In this document: positions 5,021 through 28,002 of the stretch, one piece after another
Layout of the letters: each line of letters starts with the position of its first letter
Numbering within the stretch: the first letter of the stretch is position 1
IMG/VR virus record: IMGVR_UViG_3300009068_003024
Span: 1-39,231 of that record
DNA: 39,231 nt
Strand: one strand, 5' to 3'
Source: a virus
Made by a program: the position numbers and the translations under genes
The notes under the pieces: generated by a model
Database searches by the model: none
Told to the model about the DNA's origin: nothing
The model's input: only the letters and a program-made list of their open reading frames with translations

Positions 5021-5278
5021 TTACTTGTCTTTGCCTACTGCTATCACCAAGTTTTCTAAATTGTCAAACTCTTCAGCAACTTTGTTCCAATCACCTTTTT
5101 GAGCAATTTTGATTGCTCTGTTGATGATGGCTGGTTTAATTTCTAATTCTTCTGCCACTGCTTTGATAGTGTCTTTCAAACCTGTGCTTAAATCTTCAAT
5201 TTCTGAAAGCACATTAACACCTTCATCCACTATTTTTTTCAGTTTGGCTTGTTCTTCTGGGCCATATGTTCTTGCCAT
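5021..5278 (-). CDS. dsbA: DsbA-like double-stranded DNA-binding protein
   Basis: 85 residues, small, highly charged and helical. It starts MARTYGPEEQ and contains E-I-E-D-L-S-T-G-L-K-D-T and AEELEIKPAIINRAIK, which fit the T4 DsbA family as I recall it from marine T4-like phages. T4 DsbA binds double-stranded DNA near late promoters and supports late transcription. The ATG at 5278 is preceded by a strong Shine-Dalgarno (AAAGGAG), so I reject the 17-codon-longer reading. A near-perfect sigma70 promoter lies 30 bases upstream and would also drive the downstream membrane protein, HAD and guaC genes. Expression as an early or middle gene is therefore likely. Confidence 0.8.
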   Translation of the reverse strand: MARTYGPEEQAKLKKIVDEGVNVLSEIEDLSTGLKDTIKAVAEELEIKPAIINRAIKIAQKGDWNKVAEEFDNLENLVIAVGKDK

Positions 5279-5307
5279 TTTATTTCTCCTTTGATTTAGA
5301 TTGTTGT

Positions 5308-5336
5308 ATTGTAATCGATTATCACGCAATTGTCAA
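5308..5336 (-). promoter_or_regulatory. Sigma70-type promoter upstream of dsbA
   Basis: Minus strand: TTGACA at 5331-5336, 17-bp spacer, TACAAT at 5308-5313. One mismatch from consensus in total. Predicted start near 5301 gives a leader of about 23 nt that carries AAAGGAG before the dsbA ATG. It begins 4 bases before the stop of the upstream gene at 5340, so it lies in the true intergenic gap. Confidence 0.85.
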
Positions 5337-5990: not shown

Positions 5991-6010
5991 ACACAATAGT
6001 TATCAATCAA

Positions 6011-6529
6011 TTATTTTATTTCGTTAGGATTGATTTGATATCTTTTGAATATTGGTTTATACTCGCTGTATATTTTGTCTGGCGTGATCTCTGGGTGTGT
6101 TGCGGATAAATGCTTGATTGCATTTATAAAATACTGTCTATCAGTGGGAAGTTGTCTATCTGATTGATACATGTTTGTCATTGCTGTGGTAATTTTTTGC
6201 TTGTCAATTTTTTTGCTCAAGGATTTATCCTGTAGCACATTTAACAGATCCTGAAATTGTGCATCTGATGATTTGTCACCAGCTCCATAGTCTTTAAGAC
6301 CTGGGCCACCACCTATGGTGGAAATATCAGTGGCTATTTTAGACATATTGTCGTCTTTTGACAAATAATTTTGAACACTTCCTGGAAAGTTTTTTACTGT
6401 TTGTTTAACGTCTTTGGCGCCTTGCTTTATTTGATTGGGGAAATTTTTTATGGCTTTGGTTGCTTGAGCAGGGAAACTTTTTAATGCTTTGACAAAAGGT
6501 GCTTCTGAAACTATTTCATTAATTTTCAT
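6011..6529 (-). CDS. Probable virion-associated protein with MKINEIVSE leader
   Basis: 172 residues. Starts MKINEIVSE-A, the first of a series of neighbours with the same leader pattern (see findings). The next 45 residues are basic with repeated A-I-K-N-F-P/V-K-N-F-P motifs that could form amphipathic helices. The remainder is hydrophilic (SKIATDISTIGGG..., DKQKITTAMTNMYQSD). No catalytic signature. Start chosen at ATG 6529, preceded by GGAG. If the leader is a prohead-protease substrate, cleavage after Glu9 would release a basic internal protein. That role is inferred from the T4 internal-protein analogy only. Confidence 0.7.
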   Translation of the reverse strand: MKINEIVSEAPFVKALKSFPAQATKAIKNFPNQIKQGAKDVKQTVKNFPGSVQNYLSKDDNMSKIATDISTIGGGPGLKDYGAGDKSSDAQFQDLLNVLQDKSLSKKIDKQKITTAMTNMYQSDRQLPTDRQYFINAIKHLSATHPEITPDKIYSEYKPIFKRYQINPNEIK

Positions 6530-6546
6530 TCCAGCACTCCAATTTT

Positions 6547-6924
6547 TTATTTTTTGTTATTTTTCTTCTCTGTGACTTTTTTATTTAAGATTTTAAAAAG
6601 AATCTCTTCGTAGGTTTCTATTTTGCCATCGGATTGTTTCGCAATGTCTTGCACAGGTATGCTGTCAATTTCAGCTTGATCAAATTTTTCATCATAATCC
6701 ATGTAATGATACACAGAACTGATGTAATCAGCAGCTTTAGTGATCTTGGCTTGAACCCAACCTTCCAGACCTTCTGCTTCCGAAACGTTCTTTAACAACT
6801 CATGCAGTTTGATGCTGTATTTGGCCAACTTGTATAGGTCAGCACGAGCCATTTGAACTTCGTGATCCAACTCAGCTTTGTGAGCTGCATCTCCTAAACC
6901 TTCTTTGATCTGTTTGTATTTCAT
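6547..6924 (-). CDS. Conserved marine-phage helical protein (MKYKQIKE leader)
   Basis: 125 residues, helical. It contains DHEVQMARADLYKLAKYSIKLH, then LKNVSEAEGLEGWVQAKITKAADYISSVYHYMDYD, a module I recall as recurring, sometimes fused to other domains, in T4-like phages of marine bacteria. The leader MKYKQIKE-G follows the pattern of the surrounding genes. The C-terminus is lysine-rich (KKVTEKKNNKK). A late-promoter octamer sits so close upstream (6929-6937) that its mRNA would start at or next to the ATG. Function unknown; a virion or internal protein is the favoured inference. Confidence 0.75.
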   Translation of the reverse strand: MKYKQIKEGLGDAAHKAELDHEVQMARADLYKLAKYSIKLHELLKNVSEAEGLEGWVQAKITKAADYISSVYHYMDYDEKFDQAEIDSIPVQDIAKQSDGKIETYEEILFKILNKKVTEKKNNKK

Positions 6925-6928
6925 ATGA

Positions 6929-6937
6929 GTATTTATC
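6929..6937 (-). promoter_or_regulatory. T4-type late promoter, abutting the start codon
   Basis: Minus strand GATAAATAC. Five bases separate the octamer's last A from the A of the ATG at 6924, so the expected transcription start coincides with the start codon. The octamer also contains the TAA stop of the upstream gene (6933-6935). No Shine-Dalgarno is present. Confidence 0.7.
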
Positions 6938-7133
6938 TTTTTAATGGGCCGCCGAATATGCTGACGTTTTTCATGTCCAGTGCATTATCAGTGGGTTTTT
7001 GTTTTTTGGGTTTGGCTTTGGCACTTTTGTGAGCATAAGGATTGGTCACGTGTGGATTGGCTATGCTGGCAATATTGCCCGCAGATGTGGATCCTACAGA
7101 TGCCACTTCTCTTATGATGTCTCTTATTTTCAT
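6933..7133 (-). CDS. Small protein with MKIRDIIRE leader and SAGNIASIANP module
   Basis: 66 residues. Leader MKIRDIIRE-V is followed by ASVGSTSAGNIASIANPHVTNPYA, a low-complexity module I recognise as recurrent in marine T4-like phages but without known function. A lysine- and proline-rich stretch (AKAKPKKQKP) and a short hydrophobic C-terminus (MKNVSIFGGPLKR) follow. Its stop codon is embedded in the late promoter of the next gene. A DNA-contacting internal virion protein would fit the small basic character, but this is inference. Confidence 0.65.
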   Translation of the reverse strand: MKIRDIIREVASVGSTSAGNIASIANPHVTNPYAHKSAKAKPKKQKPTDNALDMKNVSIFGGPLKR

Positions 7134-7150
7134 TGTGTTTCGCCTATGCT

Positions 7151-7159
7151 GTATTTATG
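7151..7159 (-). promoter_or_regulatory. T4-type late promoter upstream of the MKIRDIIRE gene
   Basis: Minus strand CATAAATAC, 17 bases before the ATG at 7133. The leader would be about 12 nt with an AGG that could act as a weak ribosome binding site. Confidence 0.65.
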
Positions 7160-7171
7160 TGGTGTTTGGGA

Positions 7172-7363
7172 TTATTTGTGAACTTTGGGCACAGTGATGC
7201 CCAGCTTTTTCACTGCTTTGCCACCTTTGTACAGTCTTGCGTGTGGTACTTTGAGATTTTTTGGACCGTATATATCGCCCACTTTGAATGTGTAGCTCAA
7301 CTGTGCTGGATCAATGCCGTAATGATAATCTGCTCGGGATTCGGTAATTTCTTTGATTTTCAT
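7172..7363 (-). CDS. Small basic protein with MKIKEITE leader
   Basis: 63 residues. MKIKEITE-S leader, then a Tyr-rich stretch (RADYHYGIDPAQLSYTFKVGDIYG) and a strongly basic C-terminus (LYKGGKAVKKLGITVPKVHK). No known domain. It follows the upstream 59-residue gene without a gap (stop at 7364-7366, start at 7363), so the two are cotranslated. Like its neighbours it could be an internal or packaged protein; no independent evidence. Confidence 0.6.
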   Translation of the reverse strand: MKIKEITESRADYHYGIDPAQLSYTFKVGDIYGPKNLKVPHARLYKGGKAVKKLGITVPKVHK

Positions 7364-7543
7364 CTATTTGCCTGATGGCACACAATTATCTACACGTTTG
7401 CCACCTTTCATTTTGGTGCCCATGCGTTTGTAGCCTTTCCAACACACTTTGCCGTCCACACCTTTTTGTTTTTCAGATTCAGACAGTGTTAGATAACTGG
7501 GATTACCACACAGTGAACAATTAAAAATTTCGTTGATTTTCAT
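7364..7543 (-). CDS. 59-residue Cys-containing protein (MKINEIFN leader, CWKGYKRMGTKM module)
   Basis: An open frame of 59 codons between two confirmed genes, too short for usual length cut-offs. After MKINEIF it carries C-x-x-C (CSLC) near residue 9 and two later cysteines (Cys34, Cys54). The C-terminal half, GKVCWKGYKRMGTKMKGGKRVDNCVP, is a module I recall as widespread in marine phage proteins, usually near a capsid or scaffold-linked block. The four cysteines could bind one zinc ion. Start ATG at 7543; stop TAG directly precedes the next ATG. Confidence comes from the exact fit between neighbours, the leader and the module. Confidence 0.7.
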   Translation of the reverse strand: MKINEIFNCSLCGNPSYLTLSESEKQKGVDGKVCWKGYKRMGTKMKGGKRVDNCVPSGK

Positions 7544-7550
7544 AGCACTA

Positions 7551-7754
7551 TTATTTAGTGCGTTTGCGACCTTGGCGCATGTTTATTTGCCAGTGTGCCA
7601 GTTGTTTCTTGCGTGCGGATGCTGTTTTAGAACTGCGTATCTTTTTTAATTGTGTGATGGTAGCACCTTTGGGTATGCCTGCTCGCTTGCTGTCACCTGG
7701 TTTGCCTGGACCTTTGCCATCTGCAAAATTTTCTGTTACTTCACGAATCTTCAT
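7551..7754 (-). CDS. Small basic protein with MKIREVTE leader and KPGDSKRAGIPKG module
   Basis: 67 residues, strongly basic. After MKIREVTE-N come FADGKGPGKPGDSKRAGIPKGA, then TQLKKIRSS, and ARKKQLAHWQINMRQGRKR. I recognise this arrangement (PGDSKR...IPKGA...AHWQ.NMR.G) as a recurrent module of T4-like marine phages, function unknown. The Arg/Lys content and single Trp would suit nucleic-acid contact. An octamer-like CTAAATAAT overlaps its stop (7550-7558) and could act as a weak late promoter for the next gene. Confidence 0.65.
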   Translation of the reverse strand: MKIREVTENFADGKGPGKPGDSKRAGIPKGATITQLKKIRSSKTASARKKQLAHWQINMRQGRKRTK

Positions 7755-7758
7755 GGTA

Positions 7759-8478
7759 TTAAACCAGTTTTAATTTTTTTGCTTGTCTGCGGATCTCACC
7801 TGGTTTGACATCTCGAGTGGTATTTTGTTTGGTAATGATGCCCACGCCTGCTGCATCTTCCACAGGTTCCAATTGTTTTTTATGATAATTTTCAAATGCT
7901 TGTGTGACTTTGCTCAATGGATCTTTGTTGGCTTGATACAGTATGCCATATCCACCTTTGGCACGCCACTTTTCAATATTGATAGGTCTATCGTCAATCA
8001 ATATGTTGCTCACACCATTCTTTGTGGCCCAACCTTCTTTGCTGCCTGTAACAATAATCTCATCAGGCTTGACTATGTTTTTACCTATCCAAATCTTTTT
8101 GTAATATCCACTGTTTTCAGTGTCACCTCTCAATGGAGATGTTAGTATGCTGTATTTTCCACCAGTGAATTTTTTAATCATTTCAATCAGTGTGTCAGTT
8201 GTGGGAAATTTAGGCAGATTAGCAAAGAAATCTGTGCCGGCTATTCTGTCTATCACTTCTTGTTTGAGATCTTTGGTTTTGTCAGAAGTCAATTGTTTCC
8301 AGTGATCCACACCGTACAATTTCTCCACTCCACCAAAAAAGTCAGCAATCACACCATCCATGTCCAAATACACAGTGGGTCTCACTTGATTTTGTTCTGT
8401 CATGCAAGTATTATTATACAACTTTTCGTTGTGCAAATCAAGTGTTATTTTGGTATGTGTGATTTCGGCTATTTTCAT
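7759..8478 (-). CDS. HAD-family 5'(3')-deoxyribonucleotidase-like protein, possibly with two start sites
   Basis: 239 residues. The nucleotidase core begins at TVYLDMDGVIADF (Asp38/Asp40, HAD motif I), with SILTSPL (motif II), then K-E-G-W-A-T-K (motif III lysine) and ILIDDRPINIEKW (motif IV), like deoxy-type 5'-nucleotidases. The C-terminus (AAGVGIITKQNTTRDVKPGEIRRQAKKL) is a separate module seen at the ends of other marine phage proteins. The N-terminus MKIAEITHT resembles the neighbouring leaders. An in-frame ATG at codon 26 (position 8403) lies just before the domain and just downstream of a consensus-like promoter at 8413-8441, so a short enzyme and a leader-bearing long form are both possible. 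It probably dephosphorylates deoxynucleotides; substrate not proven. Confidence 0.85.
   Translation of the reverse strand: MKIAEITHTKITLDLHNEKLYNNTCMTEQNQVRPTVYLDMDGVIADFFGGVEKLYGVDHWKQLTSDKTKDLKQEVIDRIAGTDFFANLPKFPTTDTLIEMIKKFTGGKYSILTSPLRGDTENSGYYKKIWIGKNIVKPDEIIVTGSKEGWATKNGVSNILIDDRPINIEKWRAKGGYGILYQANKDPLSKVTQAFENYHKKQLEPVEDAAGVGIITKQNTTRDVKPGEIRRQAKKLKLV
8413..8441 (-). promoter_or_regulatory. Internal sigma70-type promoter inside the nucleotidase gene
   Basis: Minus strand: TTGATT at 8436-8441, 17-bp spacer, TATAAT at 8413-8418. It lies within the first 25 codons of the long reading frame. The in-frame ATG at 8403 begins nine bases after the -10 box, so the transcript would have about 3 nt of leader. 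No Shine-Dalgarno precedes that ATG. Confidence 0.65.
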
Positions 8479-8639
8479 TACTCTTTGTCACATTTTGAAC
8501 AACAACAATTGCGGCATACTTCTATGGTCCATTCACGTGTGACTTTGTTATTGACAGTTTCGCTCTCTTTTCTTTTGAAAGTTTTACCACAATGAGTTGA
8601 CCCACCGCAGTTGACACAGTATGGTTTTTCTTTGATCAT
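8478..8639 (-). CDS. 53-residue zinc-knuckle protein
   Basis: Open frame of 53 codons fitting exactly between the 289-residue gene and the nucleotidase gene; its TAA overlaps the next ATG (TAATG). It begins MIKEKPYCVNCGG and contains C-x-x-C near residues 8-11, a third cysteine at 17, and a C-terminal CRNCCCSKC cluster, so eight cysteines in total and probably one or two bound zinc ions. The central part is basic (KTFKRKE). Unlike its neighbours it has no MKI-type leader. Probable nucleic-acid or protein-binding accessory protein; no characterised family recognised. Confidence 0.7.
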   Translation of the reverse strand: MIKEKPYCVNCGGSTHCGKTFKRKESETVNNKVTREWTIEVCRNCCCSKCDKE

Positions 8640-8643
8640 ATGA

Positions 8644-9513
8644 TTAAGATTTTTTTGGTTCTTGCTCTTTATCTTTGTCTTTGTTGTAATCTTTTATGGG
8701 TTGAACAATTTTTTTAGCAATTTTATCTTTGAAACTTTCGTCAGCAGTGTCAACATCTGTGGACTGAACCACTTGATCATAATCAGCCATGCTGATAGTT
8801 TTGTCTTTGATCTTTAATAAATTTGTGGTAACATTGTGTAGATCCATATCAGTCTTGGCATCTTCTCTGGCATATTCCATCAATCTAATAAACATAGGTA
8901 TGTCTATGGTCAGTGTGTCTGTTTTAGACACTTCTTCGCCCACTGTCTTAGGAGTAGAAGGTTTATAATCAGCTGGCATAAATTTTGCATATCTATCTTG
9001 TAATTGCTTTACAGTATTCAAATCTTTGCCTGAATCCAAACTTATTTTAGCCACATCAATATCTTGTTTTATGTTCTGTATCAATTGTTTGTCGCCTTTT
9101 TGATTAGCAACATCTAATGCTTTGTTCATGGCTTGTATCACTGGCACATTATTATTGATGGCATTATTGATGGAACCTATGCCTGCCACACTGCCCACAA
9201 TAATTCCAGCCACAGCCATTTTTTGTAACCAATCTTTTAAACCTTCGTCTAATTCTGTGCTTTCAAAATGTTTAGAGTAAGGACGACCTTTGGCAAATTC
9301 TCTGCCATAGCTGAACTCCTGTCTCTGTGCTAATTCTTTGGCTGAAAATCCTGGTGCTATCTTTCCGCCTCTGTGTTGTGCTGCAAAATCTTCTCTATTT
9401 TTAAAGAACGCTCTAATCTCATCTGGATTCATCATGTCCAGTTTAGATTTAGTTTTTACCATAGATGATGGCATTCTAGAACCCATTTCGTTGATGATGT
9501 GTCTTAGCTTCAT
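8644..9513 (-). CDS. Modular virion-type protein with MKLRHIINE leader and one membrane helix
   Basis: 289 residues built from distinguishable segments. MKLRHIINE-M leader; a basic helical part (residues 15-80); an ELDEGLKDWLQ segment followed by a hydrophobic helix (MAVAGIIVGSVAGIGSI, near 104-120); a linker with D-I-D-V-A-K; and a C-terminal module IPMFIRLMEYAREDAKTDMDLHNVT...ISMADYDQVV that I recall, alone or fused, in many marine T4-like phage proteins. The tail is lysine-rich. A capsid-inserted or ejected protein with a membrane-active helix is possible but inferred. It overlaps the next upstream gene by ATGA. Confidence 0.7.
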   Translation of the reverse strand: MKLRHIINEMGSRMPSSMVKTKSKLDMMNPDEIRAFFKNREDFAAQHRGGKIAPGFSAKELAQRQEFSYGREFAKGRPYSKHFESTELDEGLKDWLQKMAVAGIIVGSVAGIGSINNAINNNVPVIQAMNKALDVANQKGDKQLIQNIKQDIDVAKISLDSGKDLNTVKQLQDRYAKFMPADYKPSTPKTVGEEVSKTDTLTIDIPMFIRLMEYAREDAKTDMDLHNVTTNLLKIKDKTISMADYDQVVQSTDVDTADESFKDKIAKKIVQPIKDYNKDKDKEQEPKKS

Positions 9514-9728
9514 TTCTTTCTTCCTCTAAATTTACTGTCTACTGAACCAGTCATGTGTGGCAGACTGAACCACAGTTTGAACCAATCTGGATCACCTGGT
9601 TTCAAGCCTAATTTTTTTTCTTTGTCTTTTAATGCCTGTGCTGTGTGACTGATATTTTCCACTGATGGCATTGTGTGTGAAAGAGTGTCTATGCCTGCCA
9701 GTTTTTTTAATTTATCAATCTCGTTCAT
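9510..9728 (-). CDS. Small conserved marine-phage protein (MNEIDKLKKLAGI)
   Basis: 72 residues. N-terminal MNEIDKLKKLAGI and C-terminal LGLKPGDPDWFKLWFSLPHMTG are both modules I recognise as recurrent in marine T4-like phages; function unknown. It ends in basic residues (FRGRKK). The leader differs from the MKI series but keeps an E-I near the start. Its late promoter at 9732-9740 would start the mRNA within about two bases of the ATG. It is translationally coupled (ATGA) to the downstream 289-residue gene. Confidence 0.7.
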   Translation of the reverse strand: MNEIDKLKKLAGIDTLSHTMPSVENISHTAQALKDKEKKLGLKPGDPDWFKLWFSLPHMTGSVDSKFRGRKK

Positions 9729-9731
9729 ACA

Positions 9732-9740
9732 ATATTTATG
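9732..9740 (-). promoter_or_regulatory. T4-type late promoter, abutting the start codon
   Basis: Minus strand CATAAATAT. Four bases separate the octamer's last A from the A of the ATG at 9728. It contains the TAA stop of the upstream gene (9736-9738). No ribosome binding site is visible. Confidence 0.65.
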
Positions 9741-10302
9741 CTGTTTGCTTTAGGTTTTGACGTATTTTTTGATATATCTCGTTGCCAATTTTTTCATCTG
9801 CGGGAATGGTGCTTAAAAAGCTGCGTCTAGCACCTTGCACAGCATATTCACGGGCTTTGCTGGCACTCACACCTGCAGCACCTTCGGCATCTGGATCTCT
9901 CATGCCAGCATTCACAGTTCTAATACTGTCAAACTGATAATCTTTGCCATTGTATTTGCTCAGCAATTGATCAAATTGTTGTACTCTGTCTGAACCTGCC
10001 ACATATATGATATCTCGGTAGCCCATGCCTTGTAATTTCTTCATGGCATCAATGATGGTTTTAACTCCTGCATCTCCCACTGTGACTGTGGGGAACATTT
10101 TTTGAGCATACAGCACTTTGTCTTCAAAACTCAAAGGATTTGTTTTGGCATCTTGAGTGTGTGTTAAAAATAAAAAATGATCTCCTGGCTGAGACGCAAT
10201 GGTATCCACTAATTTTTTATGACCTGTGGTGGGTGGATTCATTCTGCCGTAAGCAAATGCGGCAATTTTAGGCGCTGGCTGACTTATTTCTATGAGTCTC
10301 AT
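9736..10302 (-). CDS. Nucleotidyltransferase of the NMNAT/cytidylyltransferase superfamily
   Basis: 188 residues. AFAYGRMNPPTTGH (residues 15-28) is the nucleotide-binding motif of this superfamily, with T-x-G-H in place of H-x-G-H. VSASKAREYA near residue 143 corresponds to the I-S-x-T-x-x-R box. In between is a DIIYVAGSDRVQQF strand typical of adenylyl/cytidylyl transferases. T4-like phages are known to carry related enzymes, some acting as nicotinamide-mononucleotide adenylyltransferase in NAD salvage. The substrate here is not settled by sequence. The first residues MRLIEISQ resemble the MKI-x-E-I leaders of the neighbours but with Gln instead of Glu at the predicted cleavage position. 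Start overlaps the upstream stop (ATGA). Confidence 0.85.
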   Translation of the reverse strand: MRLIEISQPAPKIAAFAYGRMNPPTTGHKKLVDTIASQPGDHFLFLTHTQDAKTNPLSFEDKVLYAQKMFPTVTVGDAGVKTIIDAMKKLQGMGYRDIIYVAGSDRVQQFDQLLSKYNGKDYQFDSIRTVNAGMRDPDAEGAAGVSASKAREYAVQGARRSFLSTIPADEKIGNEIYQKIRQNLKQTA

Positions 10303-10625
10303 TGTGCATTCTTGACCGGATGTTGTGCCAACCCTTTGGTAATCTTGCCCACAAGATTCACGCGATCATCTGCATTGATTATTTTTTCTGGTTTGGCTTT
10401 GATTTTAAATTTTTTAAAATATTCTTGGATGGCATTTTCCACACAATTGCTCCACATGTTGACATCTTTTTCAATCATATGATTGTCTGTGACTTGTTTG
10501 GCCACTGGAAAGAAATGTTTCCTAAAAAAAACACTGTCATTCAACATGAATTGATATATGTCCTCTACCACATCATATCCCATGTTGTCTCTGGTAATTG
10601 CTGTGAAATCTTTCATCTTGACCAT
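10299..10625 (-). CDS. Conserved T4-like phage protein of unknown function
   Basis: 108 residues, helical and soluble. The central YDVVEDIYQFMLNDSVFFRKHFFPV and the SNCVENAIQEYFKKF segment match a family I recall from T4-like cyanophages without assigned function. A C-terminal D-D-R-V-N-L-V-G-K-I resembles the family end. Start ATG 10625 (MVKMKDF), two bases after the stop of the upstream membrane protein gene; ATGA overlap with the nucleotidyltransferase gene downstream. Confidence 0.75.
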   Translation of the reverse strand: MVKMKDFTAITRDNMGYDVVEDIYQFMLNDSVFFRKHFFPVAKQVTDNHMIEKDVNMWSNCVENAIQEYFKKFKIKAKPEKIINADDRVNLVGKITKGLAQHPVKNAQ

Positions 10626-10627
10626 GA

Positions 10628-10903
10628 TTATTTTTCCAATCTTTTAATTCTTGCTTCTAATTCGTCTATCTTTTTGGCCGCACCAGGATTTGATTTTTTC
10701 CAAGCATCTGGATCTTGATTTAACCAAGTCCAACCATATCTATCACGCAAGAAATCAATGGCTCCGTCCCACTTGCTGTACACCCATAAGCCAATGCGAG
10801 TGTCTTTGATATAGGTCAGAAACAATGCACCAAATATTGAACCCATTATGCCTGTGTATATCCACAGACGATCTCCTACCATTCTTTCAATCATTTCCCA
10901 CAT
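10628..10903 (-). CDS. Small membrane-anchored protein with C-terminal coiled coil
   Basis: 91 residues. One hydrophobic segment near residues 14-31 (WIYTGIMGSIFGALFLTYI), then an amphipathic W-rich part (VYSKWDGAIDFLRDRYGWTW) and a short C-terminal coiled coil (AAKKIDELEARIKRLEK). I recall similar proteins in marine T4-like phages. A membrane-bound adaptor is plausible; nothing specific can be assigned. It sits one base from the upstream gene and two from the downstream gene, so it belongs to the same transcription unit. Confidence 0.7.
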   Translation of the reverse strand: MWEMIERMVGDRLWIYTGIMGSIFGALFLTYIKDTRIGLWVYSKWDGAIDFLRDRYGWTWLNQDPDAWKKSNPGAAKKIDELEARIKRLEK

Positions 10904-10904
10904 G

Positions 10905-11096
10905 TTATTTGATCTCCTCTGTTGTGATTTGTGTTTTTAACCATGCTTGTTTATCTTTCTCCACTGACTCATCTGAAAGATATACATTCTTGCCATCATA
11001 AACATCTTGTAATTGCTGTCCAATCCAATCGAATACTTCTTGATCTTCCTTGGAGATAGTTTTTTTATGAGTTTTGTAATCTGTAATTTTTACCAT
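10905..11096 (-). CDS. Small acidic conserved protein
   Basis: 63 residues, acidic and helical (SKEDQEVFDWIGQQLQDVYDGKNVYL...). No domain recognised. I choose the ATG at 11096 (MVKITDY), which has GGAG about 10 bases upstream; a TTG five codons earlier is in frame but unlikely. The start overlaps the end of the upstream gene (ATGGTAA), suggesting coupled translation. Confidence 0.65.
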   Translation of the reverse strand: MVKITDYKTHKKTISKEDQEVFDWIGQQLQDVYDGKNVYLSDESVEKDKQAWLKTQITTEEIK

Positions 11097-11677
11097 TTGC
11101 GACAACTCCAATAACGGGCCTTTGTTCTTGGACCTGGGTTAGCACAGTTGTGTCTTGCTCTAAAACTTCTACGTCTTGCTGGATTGGATTTTCTAATTCT
11201 CATGTTGGGATCACCAAAGTTCACTTTGACCACATTGCCGTTGGGTTTTCGCACATACACTTTAAACTTTTTTACGTCTCCCTGCATGGGTTTACCCAAA
11301 GGCACTTTGCGTCCTCTGTATTCTGCTTCATCTAAATTTTCATCTTCATTGAACCACATCACATCATAGGCTGAATGAAAATCGTCACCTTCCAGTGTTT
11401 CTTCATCCAATGTTTCGTCAGTGCTGATTTCAATGTCAAATTCATTCAATCCCATGGCTTTCAGTTTTTCGTTTAAACTTTCTGCCAATTCATCTGCTTC
11501 AGTCGAATCCAATGATCTGTGCAGTTCCACTCGCAATACCTGATTGTCATCTTCATCCTCAAAAATCTCATATGTGGTTTGGTCTTCCAACAATCCAATA
11601 GCGCTCTCGCTCATTGCTGTGTTCAACAATGATTCTGGATTGATGTCTTTGCCTATGATGCTGAAAAAATGTTGCAT
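11090..11677 (-). CDS. Conserved marine T4-like phage protein with C-terminal RARHNC...WSCRKW domain
   Basis: 195 residues in two parts. The N-terminal 115 residues are acidic (EIFEDEDDN, E-A-D-E-L-A-E-S, DETLDEETLEGDD). The C-terminal 80 are basic: YRGRKVPLGKP, then KKFKVYVRKPNGNVVKVNFGDPNM, then RRRSFRARHNC and ARYWSCRKW. The second part is a domain I recall in many marine T4-like phages, sometimes fused to other proteins. Three conserved elements (two cysteines and the H-N-C motif) suggest metal or nucleic-acid binding. The acid-base split would allow interaction with a scaffold or with DNA in the capsid; this is inference. Confidence 0.7.
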   Translation of the reverse strand: MQHFFSIIGKDINPESLLNTAMSESAIGLLEDQTTYEIFEDEDDNQVLRVELHRSLDSTEADELAESLNEKLKAMGLNEFDIEISTDETLDEETLEGDDFHSAYDVMWFNEDENLDEAEYRGRKVPLGKPMQGDVKKFKVYVRKPNGNVVKVNFGDPNMRIRKSNPARRRSFRARHNCANPGPRTKARYWSCRKW

Positions 11678-11678
11678 A

Positions 11679-12041
11679 TTAGTGATTCAGTTTGATTGAT
11701 GCTATATCGCCTGCTGTGTACACCACTTTGGCTCTGATCCACACAAAATTACCGGTAAAATTATAAAAAAAACTACCATCAGCATTTGCATGAGCATTGT
11801 TGGTGCTGGTGTGTGCAGTGCCTGTGACATCAAACCAATCTGTGGCAGTGGGTTCAGTGGCCAATGAGGCTTGTATCACTATGGTACCCACAAAATCAGT
11901 CACAGTCAACTGCACTGTGTGAAATCCATCACTGCGACCATAGTATCCGTCGCCTTTGTATTGCTGTCCTGTGACAGTGGTGGATGTGCTGTCATTGGGA
12001 TGGTTTTGTGCTGTTAATATTGTTTCGCTGTATGCTGGCAT
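11679..12041 (-). CDS. Beta-rich virion-type protein
   Basis: 120 residues with alternating hydrophobic/Thr-rich strands (TVQLTVTDFVGTIVIQASL, FFYNFTGNFVWIRAKVVY) and a Gly/Tyr-rich loop (YKGDGYYGRSDGF). It looks like a single beta-sandwich, as in phage decoration or fibre-accessory proteins. The family is not identified. A late-promoter octamer (12046-12054) places the transcription start on its ATG, consistent with late structural expression. Confidence 0.65.
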   Translation of the reverse strand: MPAYSETILTAQNHPNDSTSTTVTGQQYKGDGYYGRSDGFHTVQLTVTDFVGTIVIQASLATEPTATDWFDVTGTAHTSTNNAHANADGSFFYNFTGNFVWIRAKVVYTAGDIASIKLNH

Positions 12042-26190: not shown

Positions 26191-28002
26191 TTAACCAAAT
26201 CTTCTGATCTTTGTTCTGGGGTAAGCAGCACCTGAAACAGGTCTTTTACCTTGTGTTTGATTTCTTTGAAAACTTTGAGCATTAAAAAATGCTCTTTTCG
26301 TAGTGGTTCCTGCCAGTTCTCCTAATCGAAATCCTCCATTGGGAGAGAAAAAATTATTTTGAATCCAATTTACATAACTTTTGAGGTTATAAAATGCTGC
26401 GACACTATAGTTAGTAGAGGCAGCTGGTCTGTTGTTCCATGTAGTACTATCAACATTCTCTACCACGGATTTAGCTTCTGAAAGTAATATAGTTTTTATT
26501 TGCGTATTCGTAGGCCATTGATTATTATAAAAGTAATATCTTTCCATCATACAGGCTGCTTTACCTACCACAGTGGGAGTAGCACAACTAGTGCCACTAA
26601 ACATTCCCCAACTATTACCATCAGCGTAAGTACTCTGTGGATATGCAGTCCAGGTACTTTCTCCCAATCCTACAATATCTATTCCTGGACCTCTATTGGA
26701 ATAAGCATCAAGTATTTGATATGTTTCTGAATTTTGTCCAGCAGCCACATCTATACTTTTATCTAAACCATTCGGACCATATGCTCTAAAAGGATAAGCT
26801 GTGGTTTGATTTGTTGTTGTGCGTGTAACAATTGTGGTACTAGAATAACTTATATCATATCTAATAATTGTACCACTGGAAGAACAAAAAGTGCCGCTCC
26901 ATCTTGGATCAGAATCTTTCACATACACTCCTCCATTGTTTCCAGCTGCATTAAAATTGACTATGCCAGCGTCCCAAGCAGCTTCTAAGGCAACTTTAAG
27001 TGGAGTGTTTTGTAAAGGGTAAGGAAATACTGCACACCATTCAAAATTTAATGTGTTAGGATCTTGAATTCTAAAAGGTATTATATTTCTTGATGTGAAC
27101 GGAGTTAAATCCACTCCCCAACTTGCTCCTGGTCTATTAACTGTTCCACTGGGAGTAGTTATACTGTTGATATCATCTATTTTAATTCCATAATTTCTAT
27201 CTACAAGATACTGATATTCACCTATCATGATGGTAGGATTAGGAACACCTGTGATAGGATTTACAGGTTTACTATTGTGCCAAGAAATTATGGCATTGAT
27301 ACATTCAACCGTTCCATCTTCGGCTGTTAGATATGCAACATAAAGATTAGATTTTTTAGCAAAACCACATATGGTTCCTGCAGCCGCACTGAGTACTCCC
27401 ATTGCATGTGAACTAAAAACTCTATTGGAAGATATTTGATTATTGCTAGTATCTTCTAAATCTGTCCAATTTTTAGCAATCACTCTGGGAGTTCCAGGAG
27501 ATTCTAAATTTGAAAAATCTGGATGAGTTGCATGTACTCCTTGCAAAGTATTGTTAACAGGTCCTACTTCAAGACTGACTATATCCACATTTTTTCCAGT
27601 CCATCTATTAAAATAAGTTGCATTATTTAAAGATGAAACTGGATCATTACTGCCTAATTTTTGCGAAGAATATATTATGTCTGTATCAAGATAAAACTGC
27701 ATGGGCATATAATTTGAACCACTTAAAAGTGTGCTAGGAGCAACAGCAGTAATAGTTTTAGTAGTTGTAAAAAAATCAGGCAATGAAGCAGGAACTGGCT
27801 TGAATAATCTAAAATCTATATTTTTTATTTGAGAATTATTAGAAAACTCTGTTATATAATCTTCATCTATATTGACAACAATTAAATTATCTATGGATTC
27901 CATAATGTTCCATAGTTCTACTTTATCATTATTAAATTGATCAATAAATTGTTGTTTATTTACATCATTATTTAAAATTACATCTATTATTTTTTTTGGC
28001 AT
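26191..28002 (-). CDS. Subtilisin-like (S8) serine protease inserted in the fibre cluster; catalytic Asp position is Glu
   Basis: 603 residues. Ser region FSGTSCATP (Ser472), His region SSHAMGVLSAA (His199), oxyanion Asn region NAAGNN (Asn355), and the S-N-R-G-P-G...D-I-V-G-L-G box (near 435-447) all match subtilases. The Asp region reads VDIVSLEVG, with Glu145 at the catalytic Asp position. The first 110 residues are a proregion-like beta-alpha domain (MPKKIIDVILNN...IVVNIDEDY). The C-terminus has K-R-P-V-S-G-A-A-Y-P-R, a fibre-associated type of ending. The DNA is more AT-rich and uses different codons from the fibre genes on both sides, which points to recent acquisition. It may be a virion protease that cleaves host surface proteins or matures fibres. 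No signal peptide. The upstream gap is only three bases, and it probably depends on the upstream late promoter. Confidence 0.85.
   Translation of the reverse strand: MPKKIIDVILNNDVNKQQFIDQFNNDKVELWNIMESIDNLIVVNIDEDYITEFSNNSQIKNIDFRLFKPVPASLPDFFTTTKTITAVAPSTLLSGSNYMPMQFYLDTDIIYSSQKLGSNDPVSSLNNATYFNRWTGKNVDIVSLEVGPVNNTLQGVHATHPDFSNLESPGTPRVIAKNWTDLEDTSNNQISSNRVFSSHAMGVLSAAAGTICGFAKKSNLYVAYLTAEDGTVECINAIISWHNSKPVNPITGVPNPTIMIGEYQYLVDRNYGIKIDDINSITTPSGTVNRPGASWGVDLTPFTSRNIIPFRIQDPNTLNFEWCAVFPYPLQNTPLKVALEAAWDAGIVNFNAAGNNGGVYVKDSDPRWSGTFCSSSGTIIRYDISYSSTTIVTRTTTNQTTAYPFRAYGPNGLDKSIDVAAGQNSETYQILDAYSNRGPGIDIVGLGESTWTAYPQSTYADGNSWGMFSGTSCATPTVVGKAACMMERYYFYNNQWPTNTQIKTILLSEAKSVVENVDSTTWNNRPAASTNYSVAAFYNLKSYVNWIQNNFFSPNGGFRLGELAGTTTKRAFFNAQSFQRNQTQGKRPVSGAAYPRTKIRRFG

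Follow-up and report, generated by a model that had tools for sequence, protein, structure and literature searches.

A row of genes with a common leader

The window, a 39,231-nucleotide stretch of viral DNA, carries on its minus strand a row of nine neighbouring genes whose translated ORFs all start with the pattern M-K/R-hydrophobic-x-E/D/Q/H-hydrophobic. This leader spans about 8-10 residues of proteins whose bodies are unrelated, and in six of the nine it holds a hydrophobic-x-E site with the Glu at residue 8 or 9. An earlier note had proposed the nine starts from the sequence; all of them are ATG codons on the minus strand where it placed them, and its count of six sites was reproduced, the three misfits being starts 7543, 8478 and 10302. 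The features of the row are listed below, a slash following the Glu of each site.

6011-6529, minus strand: leader ORF, 172 aa, MKINEIVSE/APF; leader at 6503-6529
6547-6924, minus strand: leader ORF, 125 aa, MKYKQIKE/GLG; counterpart in record G002, MKHKDIKE/GLA
6933-7133, minus strand: leader ORF, 66 aa, MKIRDIIRE/VASVGSTSAGNIAS, leader plus a copied capsid-protein junction; PHROG 17311 match, E 0.0031
7065-7109, minus strand: junction-mimic stretch, residues 9-23 of the preceding ORF, E/VASVGSTSAGNIAS; ASVGSTSAGN in common with the L281 capsid protein
7172-7363, minus strand: leader ORF, 63 aa, MKIKEITE/SRADYHYG; G002 counterpart MKIRDIVHE/AWADYHYG
7364-7543, minus strand: leader ORF, 59 aa, MKINEIFN and a CWKGY...MKGGKRVDNCVP module with PHROG matches
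7551-7754, minus strand: leader ORF, 67 aa, MKIREVTE/NFADGKGPGKPGDS module
7759-8478, minus strand: leader ORF, 239 aa, MKIAEITHT without Glu site, 5'-deoxyribonucleotidase domain, C-terminal AAGVGIITKQN module
8478-8639, minus strand: Cys-rich ORF, 53 aa, no leader; G007 counterpart MMEIKSKDYCVNCG likewise without leader
8644-9513, minus strand: leader ORF, 289 aa, MKLRHIINE/M, hydrophobic stretch GIIVGSVAGIGS, widespread C-terminal module
9510-9728, minus strand: 72-aa ORF without leader, starting MNEIDKLKKLAGI, a motif resembling the C-terminal end of the protein that occupies the place of the gp22 scaffold
9736-10302, minus strand: leader ORF, 188 aa, MRLIEISQ without Glu site, cytidylyltransferase (PHROG 3041, E 2.1e-48)

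Two of the longer products resemble enzymes: besides the cytidylyltransferase, the nucleotidase domain of ORF 7759-8478 matches PHROG 2643 (E 8.7e-25) and Pfam NT5C (26.4 bits, cut-off 24.8). The Cys-rich protein, which the earlier note had counted among the leader-bearing cargo, has to be removed from that set; neither it nor ORF 9510-9728 gave a PHROG match at E 0.01. The tails compared with the start of the latter read ..IRRLAGL, ..IKRLAGI and ..LRRLAGIK. In G002 the positional counterpart of ORF 6011-6529 (MKINELVTP) keeps 5/7 leader residues and aligns over the whole protein at 39/163, and the counterparts of the ORFs starting at 8478 and 10302 are likewise missing the Glu site. At the DNA level, positions 6000-12000 matched 15 records of named phages, each over 1-3% of the query.

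An all-against-all BLASTP of the nine bodies from residue 11 on returned a best E of only 0.28, bearing out the earlier note's statement that the rest of each protein is unrelated. The nine genes are thus not a visibly duplicated family, and with no homologous bodies an origin by gene duplication was rejected. In a held-out set made up of the loci of the junction-mimic family described below, leader codons differ synonymously, so that conservation seems to act on the peptide and not on the DNA, which speaks against a nucleotide or translation signal as the leader's origin.

The confinement of the leader to this cluster was observed directly. With the leader core defined as M[KR][ILVMFY]x[EDQH][ILVMF] at ATG (or first start) within the first 30 codons, and with mechanically called ORFs of at least 45 aa passed through a non-overlap filter, false ORFs included, the core was found on 37 of 74 cluster ORFs and on none of 493 outside, in six related records of which three are close kin (G000, G002 and G003 are close relatives) and with cluster limits set after the matches were known. 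The core lies on 7/11 cluster ORFs in the window, where two opposite-strand ORFs displaced the leader ORFs 7172-7363 and 7551-7754 through the filter, and on 8/11 in G002, 7/11 in G003, 4/16 in G007, 7/16 in G008 and 4/9 in G038; the corresponding counts outside are 0/39, 0/120, 0/53, 0/109, 0/71 and 0/101. The earlier note had held that an equal presence on replication enzymes would count against its reading, and the window and G002 figures show no such spread. Internal Met residues matched the core in 2/2136 cases, and widening the start search to 60 codons added one match outside the clusters (G007, 100733). None of the four core leaders of G038 satisfies the Glu-site rule. Around the 76 held-out loci, 963 distinct ORFs include 100 with the core; these all lie on the same strand, and 62 of them have a Glu site. 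Comparison rates were 5/268 in T4, 1/245 in G010, 2/212 in G012, 1/234 in G014, 6/220 in G015 and 10/485 in Pseudomonas phage PA5oct. The leader DNA pattern was no more frequent than the reversed pattern in phage CBB (17 vs 23 matches), and the counts for Vibrio phage 2.275.O (14 vs 11) and for Phosso (14 vs 8) show little or no enrichment; with no clear enrichment in these three jumbo relatives, the dialect does not appear to be general in the jumbo T4-like supergroup.

Glu-bounded modules and a copied capsid junction

Several bodies are built from modules that recur in other contexts. The NFADG module follows hydrophobic-x-E in 38/48 contexts, compared with 73/960 control positions, and in the 28 contexts listed of 48 for the NFADGKGPGKPGDS module a Glu directly precedes the module's Asn every time. 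The CWxGY module is Glu-bounded in only 21/44 contexts; in relatives the leader can adjoin this type of module directly (MKYREILE/KCWQGY, MRIAEIITE/KCWKGY), and the window's copy matches 7 PHROGs at E below 1e-4 and 9 at E up to 1. VGIITKQN was dropped as a third Glu-bounded module, with 2/11 contexts. The C-terminal module of ORF 8644-9513 is widespread: of 335 stretches in viral contigs that fit the pattern, 330 code for a relative (the best 80 were kept). We count modules that begin right after a Glu as new.

ORF 6933-7133 is made up of a leader and a stretch that copies the junction at which the capsid protein is presumed to be cleaved, reading IRE/VASVGSTSAGNIAS against INE/SASVGSTSAGNVAT in the capsid protein. 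The word ASVGSTSAGN is common to the L281 capsid protein and this ORF, the next longest word among the 51 window ORFs being 7 residues, and in G038, which has both genes on one contig, the common word is the 10-residue ATAGATSAGN with a next longest of 6 among 109 ORFs. The L279 and L280 capsid proteins have only TSAGN in common with the window's stretch. All 8 aligned proteins have the Glu in front of the junction. PHROG 17311, to which the library assigns no function and no link with capsid proteins, fits both kinds of protein, matching a relative's capsid protein at E 0.0023. This small, widespread family, which we count as new, gave no match in named phages when one member (L332) was searched by tblastn against the phages collection at E 0.01.

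The window, a fragment, and records G001-G009 contain neither gp21 nor gp23. Among relatives in which head genes were found, the nearest carry genes for a gp23-type capsid protein and a gp21-type protease (Pfam PF03420). The protease occurs only in the more distant records G028, G029 and G031, which are 65-76% alike at one gene, interpreted as a baseplate gene, and in G038 (50%). The gp21-like protease for which the earlier note had suggested a search is therefore found in relatives and not in the window or G001-G009. The parts seen of a genomic study of jumbo phages (PMC7824862) hold nothing on prohead proteases.

The closest known kind of leader is the T4 capsid targeting sequence (CTS). The resemblance lies in a short N-terminal leader ending in hydrophobic-x-E on otherwise unrelated head cargo (IPI-IPIII, Alt); the window differs in its MKIxEIxxE form, in bearing nine such genes in one stretch and in having some without Glu. 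T4 IPII and IPIII begin MKTYQEFIAEA, and the window leaders depart from the residues of MKTYQEFIAE, which the earlier note had offered as the parallel; its assignment to the capsid-targeting kind is supported, and the nearest T4 string is instead the MAKINELLRE of gp24. T4 gp24, which is cut after residue 10, begins MAKINELLRES, nearly the same string as the window's MKINEIVSEA and MKIRDIIREV, although gp24 is a shell vertex protein whereas the window proteins are small and cargo-like. The short N-terminal propeptide of gp24 is described in PMC5694885 and the targeting function of the internal-protein CTS in PMC9026906, with further CTS facts in PMC5694885.

Virion association and probable cargo loading

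An association of the leader with virion-flagged proteins was observed in PA5oct, where the core occurs on 7/93 proteins flagged by mass spectrometry in the virion and on 3/392 other ORFs (Fisher p 5.7e-4). One flagged protein of 73 aa, MKINDIITEG, is encoded between portal and protease; most leader proteins there are annotated simply as structural, including one of 482 aa at 130473. The Glu site alone shows no enrichment among flagged proteins (12/93 vs 39/392, p 0.25) and was rejected as a virion mark in this phage. The PA5oct cytidylyltransferase lacks such a start and is not flagged, and our search found no proteomics of the window's own lineage.

Cyanophages supply a second line of evidence. 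Members of the cytidylyltransferase family are reported from virions of S-SM1 (PMC3037559) and of S-CREM2 and others (PMC10665884; PMC9602691), and PMC10665884 cautions that such proteins may enter virion proteomes through high expression. T4-GC190 (NMNAT-like) is homologous to the window's enzyme and, in the copies examined, carries a CTS-like leader, which in cyanophages resembles that of T4: cyanophage starts are MKSFSQFLTE, MKSFTSFFTE and MKNFHQFITE, so that the dialect is MKSFxxFxxE in cyanophages, MLLKELFE in the window's relatives and MRLIEIS in the window. The S-PM2 enzyme has no tag-like start. Among cytidylyltransferases with a short N-extension, 42/43 have hydrophobic-x-E in residues 6-16, compared with 390/1484 background ORFs. 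The passages covered of the virion reports make no mention of a tag.

We consider it likely that the row encodes prohead cargo and that its leader is a T4-type targeting sequence written in another dialect, which would be cut after Glu; the genes are probably cargo carried with the DNA of a bacterial virus. The capsid-targeting reading first put forward in the earlier note is well supported, indirectly, by the gp21 and gp23 of relatives, the junction copy, the PA5oct enrichment and the cyanophage virion enzymes. We infer that, while the shell is still open, the leader would attach each protein to the scaffold core. Subsequently, a prohead protease of the gp21 type would cleave behind the Glu of the hydrophobic-x-E site, near residue 8-10, and so release the cargo inside the head. 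The Glu-less copies (7543, 8478, 10302) may be packed uncut or cut elsewhere. Small basic proteins would probably lie beside the packaged DNA, and the junction-mimic protein would probably line the shell on its inner side; the nucleotidase and cytidylyltransferase would probably be ejected with the DNA and act early in the host.

The main competitor, which we regard as possible yet unlikely, is that the leader brings proteins into the prohead as core or shell assembly factors, which give the core its shape, are degraded and disappear, or remain attached inside the shell, rather than as injected effectors. The position of the PA5oct MKINDIITEG gene, the copying of a shell protein and the scaffold-tail-like opening of ORF 9510-9728 speak for such a role, whereas two members are enzymes, one from a family that the cyanophage papers report in several virions. 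Less probable is a pure docking tag that the protease leaves uncut, its Glu incidental: a site missing from three of nine leaders and the PA5oct enrichment of core but not of site alone would fit, but the near-constant site of extended cytidylyltransferases, the NFADG contexts and the invariant Glu before the junction argue for cleavage. That the leader sends its proteins elsewhere in the virion, for instance to the tail or baseplate, or to some structure of the host seems very improbable; most PA5oct leader proteins being annotated only as structural is compatible with it, and it is opposed by the copied capsid junction, the match to gp24 and the known place of T4 CTS proteins in the head. 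That the shared start is codon bias, a translation signal or gene duplication can be given hardly any weight: the leaders are A-rich and closely spaced, but their codons vary synonymously, the bodies are unrelated and the ORFs outside the clusters lack them.

Beyond prohead cargo loading itself, we raise tentatively, as something we doubt more than we believe, a modular system for head cargo that borrows the language of the phages' own shell maturation, with a junction copy, shuffled modules, polyproteins and perhaps a scaffold-tail signal. Here the trimmed junction-mimic protein would present the capsid protein's mature N-terminal arm and join the inner shell lattice. NFADG and CWKGY would be exchangeable units, placed now in short proteins with a leader and now in the interior of large ones, often keeping the Glu boundary, and the larger proteins would be polyproteins that the prohead protease cuts into packaged peptides. 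RLKKLAGI would serve as a second entry signal and may imitate the scaffold's C-terminal tail.

Neither the leader dialect nor the junction copy is described in the parts covered of the literature searched (including PMC5259590, PMC5694885, PMC9026906, PMC7824862, PMC3037559, PMC10665884 and PMC9602691), and we count a second leader dialect spanning a whole gene row as new. If the cargo reading is right, the family that copies the junction suggests that maturation of the capsid and loading of cargo are directly connected, and the tag would offer an explanation for the entry of NMNAT-like enzymes into cyanophage virions. The model yields predicted N-termini that proteomics can check. Many such genes of uncultured T4-like phages are without an assigned function, and a readable N-terminal tag would then mark packaged, and perhaps injected, cargo there.

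Leader-bearing genes in the window and its relatives

The earlier note had proposed that nine genes of the window share a short amino-terminal leader; all nine starts are present in the sequence, six of the nine leaders carry hydrophobic-x-E as claimed, with the Glu at residue 8 or 9, and the bodies behind them are indeed unrelated. The features concerned are as follows (a slash marks the presumed junction).

6011-10302, minus strand: the cluster, a gene row with nine leader ORFs
6011-6529, minus strand: leader ORF with a positional counterpart in the related record G002
6933-7133, minus strand: leader ORF MKIRDIIRE/VASVGSTSAGNIAS
7551-7754, minus strand: leader ORF MKIREVTE/NFADGKGP

With the leader core written as a protein start M[KR][ILVMFY]x[EDQH][ILVMF] and the Glu site as hydrophobic-x-E close behind, the core begins 37 of 74 mechanical ORFs within the cluster in six records (7/11, 8/11, 7/11, 4/16, 7/16 and 4/9) and 0 of 493 elsewhere (0/39, 0/120, 0/53, 0/109, 0/71 and 0/101, same order), counts in which the cluster limits were drawn post hoc with the hits already known, G000 (the window), G002 and G003 are close kin, and the ORFs are partly false, 2 of the window's 11 being opposite-strand ORFs that displace two of the nine leader genes. 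A wider start search gave one match beyond the cluster (G007, 100733). The core is found at 2 of 2136 internal Met residues used as a control, and at background rates of 5/268 in T4, 1/245 in G010, 2/212 in G012, 1/234 in G014 and 6/220 in G015.

A held-out test on the neighbours of the junction-mimic family, small proteins resembling ORF 6933-7133, sidesteps the post-hoc cluster limits. The scan, queried with an alignment of eight such proteins, gave at least 600 pattern-matching stretches, at least 83 of them encoding a relative; the best 80 of these were used, and removal of four loci of known or near-identical records, and of the family member itself, left 76 loci. Among these, 100 of 963 distinct neighbouring ORFs carry the core, all on the family member's strand and 62 with a Glu site; at least one core-bearing neighbour is present at 46 of the 76 loci and none at 30.

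A copy of the presumed capsid-protein junction behind the leader

In the nearest relatives with head genes (loci L189, L190 and L194), a gp21-type protease (Pfam PF03420, over the cut-off) lies near a 389-aa protein, whose L194-record copy has matches to major head proteins of phages, to PHROG 138 and, among others, to T4 gp23 chains (E 8e-39 to 5.5e-39). The presumed junction of this capsid protein reads KYINE/SASVGSTSAGNVATLN, and strings of this type occur in 14 distinct small-protein and 7 distinct capsid-protein contexts. In G038 a single contig carries both genes; a comparison of the capsid protein with 109 other ORFs gave ATAGATSAGN, in the small protein, as the longest shared word (next, 6 residues). 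The capsid protein of L281, in L194's record, shares ASVGSTSAGN with ORF 6933-7133 among the window's 51 ORFs (next, 7); those of L279 and L280 have no more than TSAGN in common with this ORF, and a word of 6 or 7 residues in common with a different window ORF. No junction copy was seen in Pseudomonas phage PA5oct, whose capsid protein (..FLVENASAGATQAGNIATINK) has no common word above 5 residues among 469 other ORFs. PHROG 17311, a profile made by others, matches both kinds of protein, at E 1e-4 to 3e-3 for the small ones and at E 0.0023 for the capsid protein.

HMMER aligns the junction stretch with T4 gp23 from about residue 79, which lies towards the N-terminus of mature gp23; the T4 propeptide is given as 65 residues (PMC5694885). 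By analogy with T4, and from the Glu itself, cleavage in these phages would probably follow the Glu, which is invariant in 8 of 8 aligned small proteins. The leader core starts the family member ahead of the junction at 70 of 80 loci (the best 80 of at least 83), a figure biased upward because the query alignment includes the leader. In G015, other leader kinds, MKLSELKQIIREE and RMKKIAGLITE, occur at 52.8-68.6 kb, upstream of the gp21 and gp23 genes; at 77135 a small protein contains TGGGTAGAAFSPGVG, a stretch that resembles the N-terminal part of that record's own capsid protein.

The window record (IMG/VR virus, linear, 39,231 bases) holds most of its genes on the minus strand, as read from translations, and these appear to encode a DNA polymerase of family B, an ATPase resembling ClpA, a clamp-loader subunit and long proteins of tail-fibre-like type. 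Among the phage DNA polymerases matched by the first of these, the best are from jumbo T4-like phages; at the DNA level 6000-12000 gives short matches to named phages and nothing longer. Relatives were drawn from viral contigs (G001, G002 of 116 kb, G003, G007 of 114 kb, G008), G001 matching the window at 99-100% at two proteins; G028, G029, G031 and G038 were reached via one G002 gene read as baseplate. Neither gp21 nor gp23 was found in the window or G001-G009 (31 to 116 kb, maybe fragments), and the protease tie to the window lineage passes through more distant records. Among the tail-fibre-like genes, a 603-aa ORF (26191-28002) reads like a subtilase-type serine protease, and past such genes in G002 (~44-62 kb; L100, L101) lies a run resembling, by reading, radical-SAM proteins and other modifying enzymes.

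Modules and cytidylyltransferases joined to the leader

Between ORF 6011-6529 and its G002 counterpart MKINE[IL]V is kept, and the rest aligns at 39/163 (BLASTP E 1e-5). In the G002 counterpart of ORF 7551-7754, ~80 additional residues separate the leader from VDE/NFADGRGP, and in relatives a CWKGY module directly follows the leader (MKYREILE/KCWQGY, MRIAEIITE/KCWKGY). Hydrophobic-x-E ends at most 5 residues ahead of NFADG in 38 of 48 distinct contexts from environmental loci versus 73/960 control positions, and precedes CWxGY in 21/44 versus 111/880 and VGIITKQN in 2/11 versus 10/220, many of these contexts coming from related phages and hence being non-independent; Glu is immediately ahead of NFADG in 28 of the 28 contexts displayed, out of 48. 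A C-terminal module at 11090-11677, ending RARHNCANPGPRTKARYWSCRKW, includes 205 bases 76% identical in DNA to a stretch in the Pelagibacter siphophages Kolga and Aegir, which in Kolga adjoins a CWKGY mini-protein gene.

For CYTIDYLYLTRANSFERASE, the loci scanned hold 47 distinct homologues with an FGRxNPP-type motif, 43 of them with at most 25 residues ahead of it; hydrophobic-x-E lies in residues 6-16 of 42 of these 43 cytidylyltransferases versus 390/1484 background ORFs. Two leader dialects recur, one as MLLKELFE/A, MFLREIFE/A and MRLRELFE/A, the other as MKSFLELVE/E and MTLRTFKEHLIKE/A. The cytidylyltransferase starts of cyanophages P-SSM2 (MKSFSQFLTET), P-TIM68 (MKSFTSFFTEA) and S-SRM01 (MKNFHQFITEA) and of marine virus AG-345-L05 (MKSFLNFISES) are all alike to T4 MKTYQEFIAEA. 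The window's own enzyme has YGRMNPP and is therefore not among the 47; Glu is absent from its leader and from that of L023, and no such leader stands at the annotated start of the S-PM2 enzyme or in that of PA5oct. In G007 (L108:2918-4099) one protein with the leader MLLKELFEA combines the cytidylyltransferase and the deoxyribonucleotidase, which the window encodes as two leader genes.

Virion proteins and a possible route for cargo

Virion flags in PA5oct are ESI-MS/MS marks in the notes of its sequence record. The core begins 7 of 93 flagged proteins versus 3 of 392 other mechanical ORFs (Fisher p 5.7e-4), a comparison that used annotated starts for the former and an ATG anywhere in codons 1-30 for the latter and so favours the latter. 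One is a 73-aa protein, MKINDIITEG, encoded between portal and protease, with positional equivalents MKLVELFEA in Vibrio phage 2.275.O and MLDEIFEA in phage CBB; the others start MKILEMAES, MKLFEVFTLYE, MRLDEIQSK, MKIKDILVES, MRLNEINLIET and MKILEFNLTEK. The Glu site alone is not enriched in flagged proteins (12/93 versus 39/392, p 0.25), and the cytidylyltransferase bears no MS flag. Against a reversed control, the leader DNA pattern is not enriched in CBB (17 versus 23), with 14 versus 11 in 2.275.O and 14 versus 8 in Phosso. Window ORF 5021-5329 resembles, by eye, the start of flagged PA5oct protein 216266-216541; in PHROGs it matches a family of unknown function (E 9.6e-16) and one named transcriptional regulator (E 2.7e-10). 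Elsewhere, the cytidylyltransferase family is reported in virions, as T4-GC190 in those of S-SM1 (PMC3037559), in those of S-CREM2 (3 unique peptides) and others (PMC10665884), and as NMNAT-like proteins in those of S-SCSM1 (PMC9602691); PMC10665884 cautions that high expression may account for such proteins in virion data.

In 13 head regions scanned, the protein at the position of scaffold gp22 has ..LAGL or ..LAGI at its end, to within three residues, in 11 (G010, G012, G015, G028, G029, G031, G035, G036, G038, G040 and PA5oct); G014 ends QKLANIIK and T4 KVASRF. Beyond these regions the ends are RRLAGIEK (Phosso), TKIAGIRK (2.275.O) and RNAGISKNR (CBB). Window ORF 9510-9728 starts MNEIDKLKKLAGI, and in G012 the motif also ends two other proteins. 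In PA5oct a loose form occurs in 3/93 flagged versus 2/392 other ORFs, the scaffold-position protein being one of the 2. At a guess, this scaffold-tail-like motif might dock cargo.

According to PMC9026906 and PMC5694885 on T4, the first 10 residues of IPIII are enough for packaging, positions 4 and 7 being important for targeting and positions 8 and 10 for processing; gp21 cleaves behind L/I-x-E, and with Asp as residue 10 processing stops while targeting is kept. Because that Asp-10 leader was targeted though unprocessed, the three Glu-less window leaders could, by analogy, still be packed. The nucleotidase and cytidylyltransferase may act early in the host, where they would supply nucleotides or NAD.
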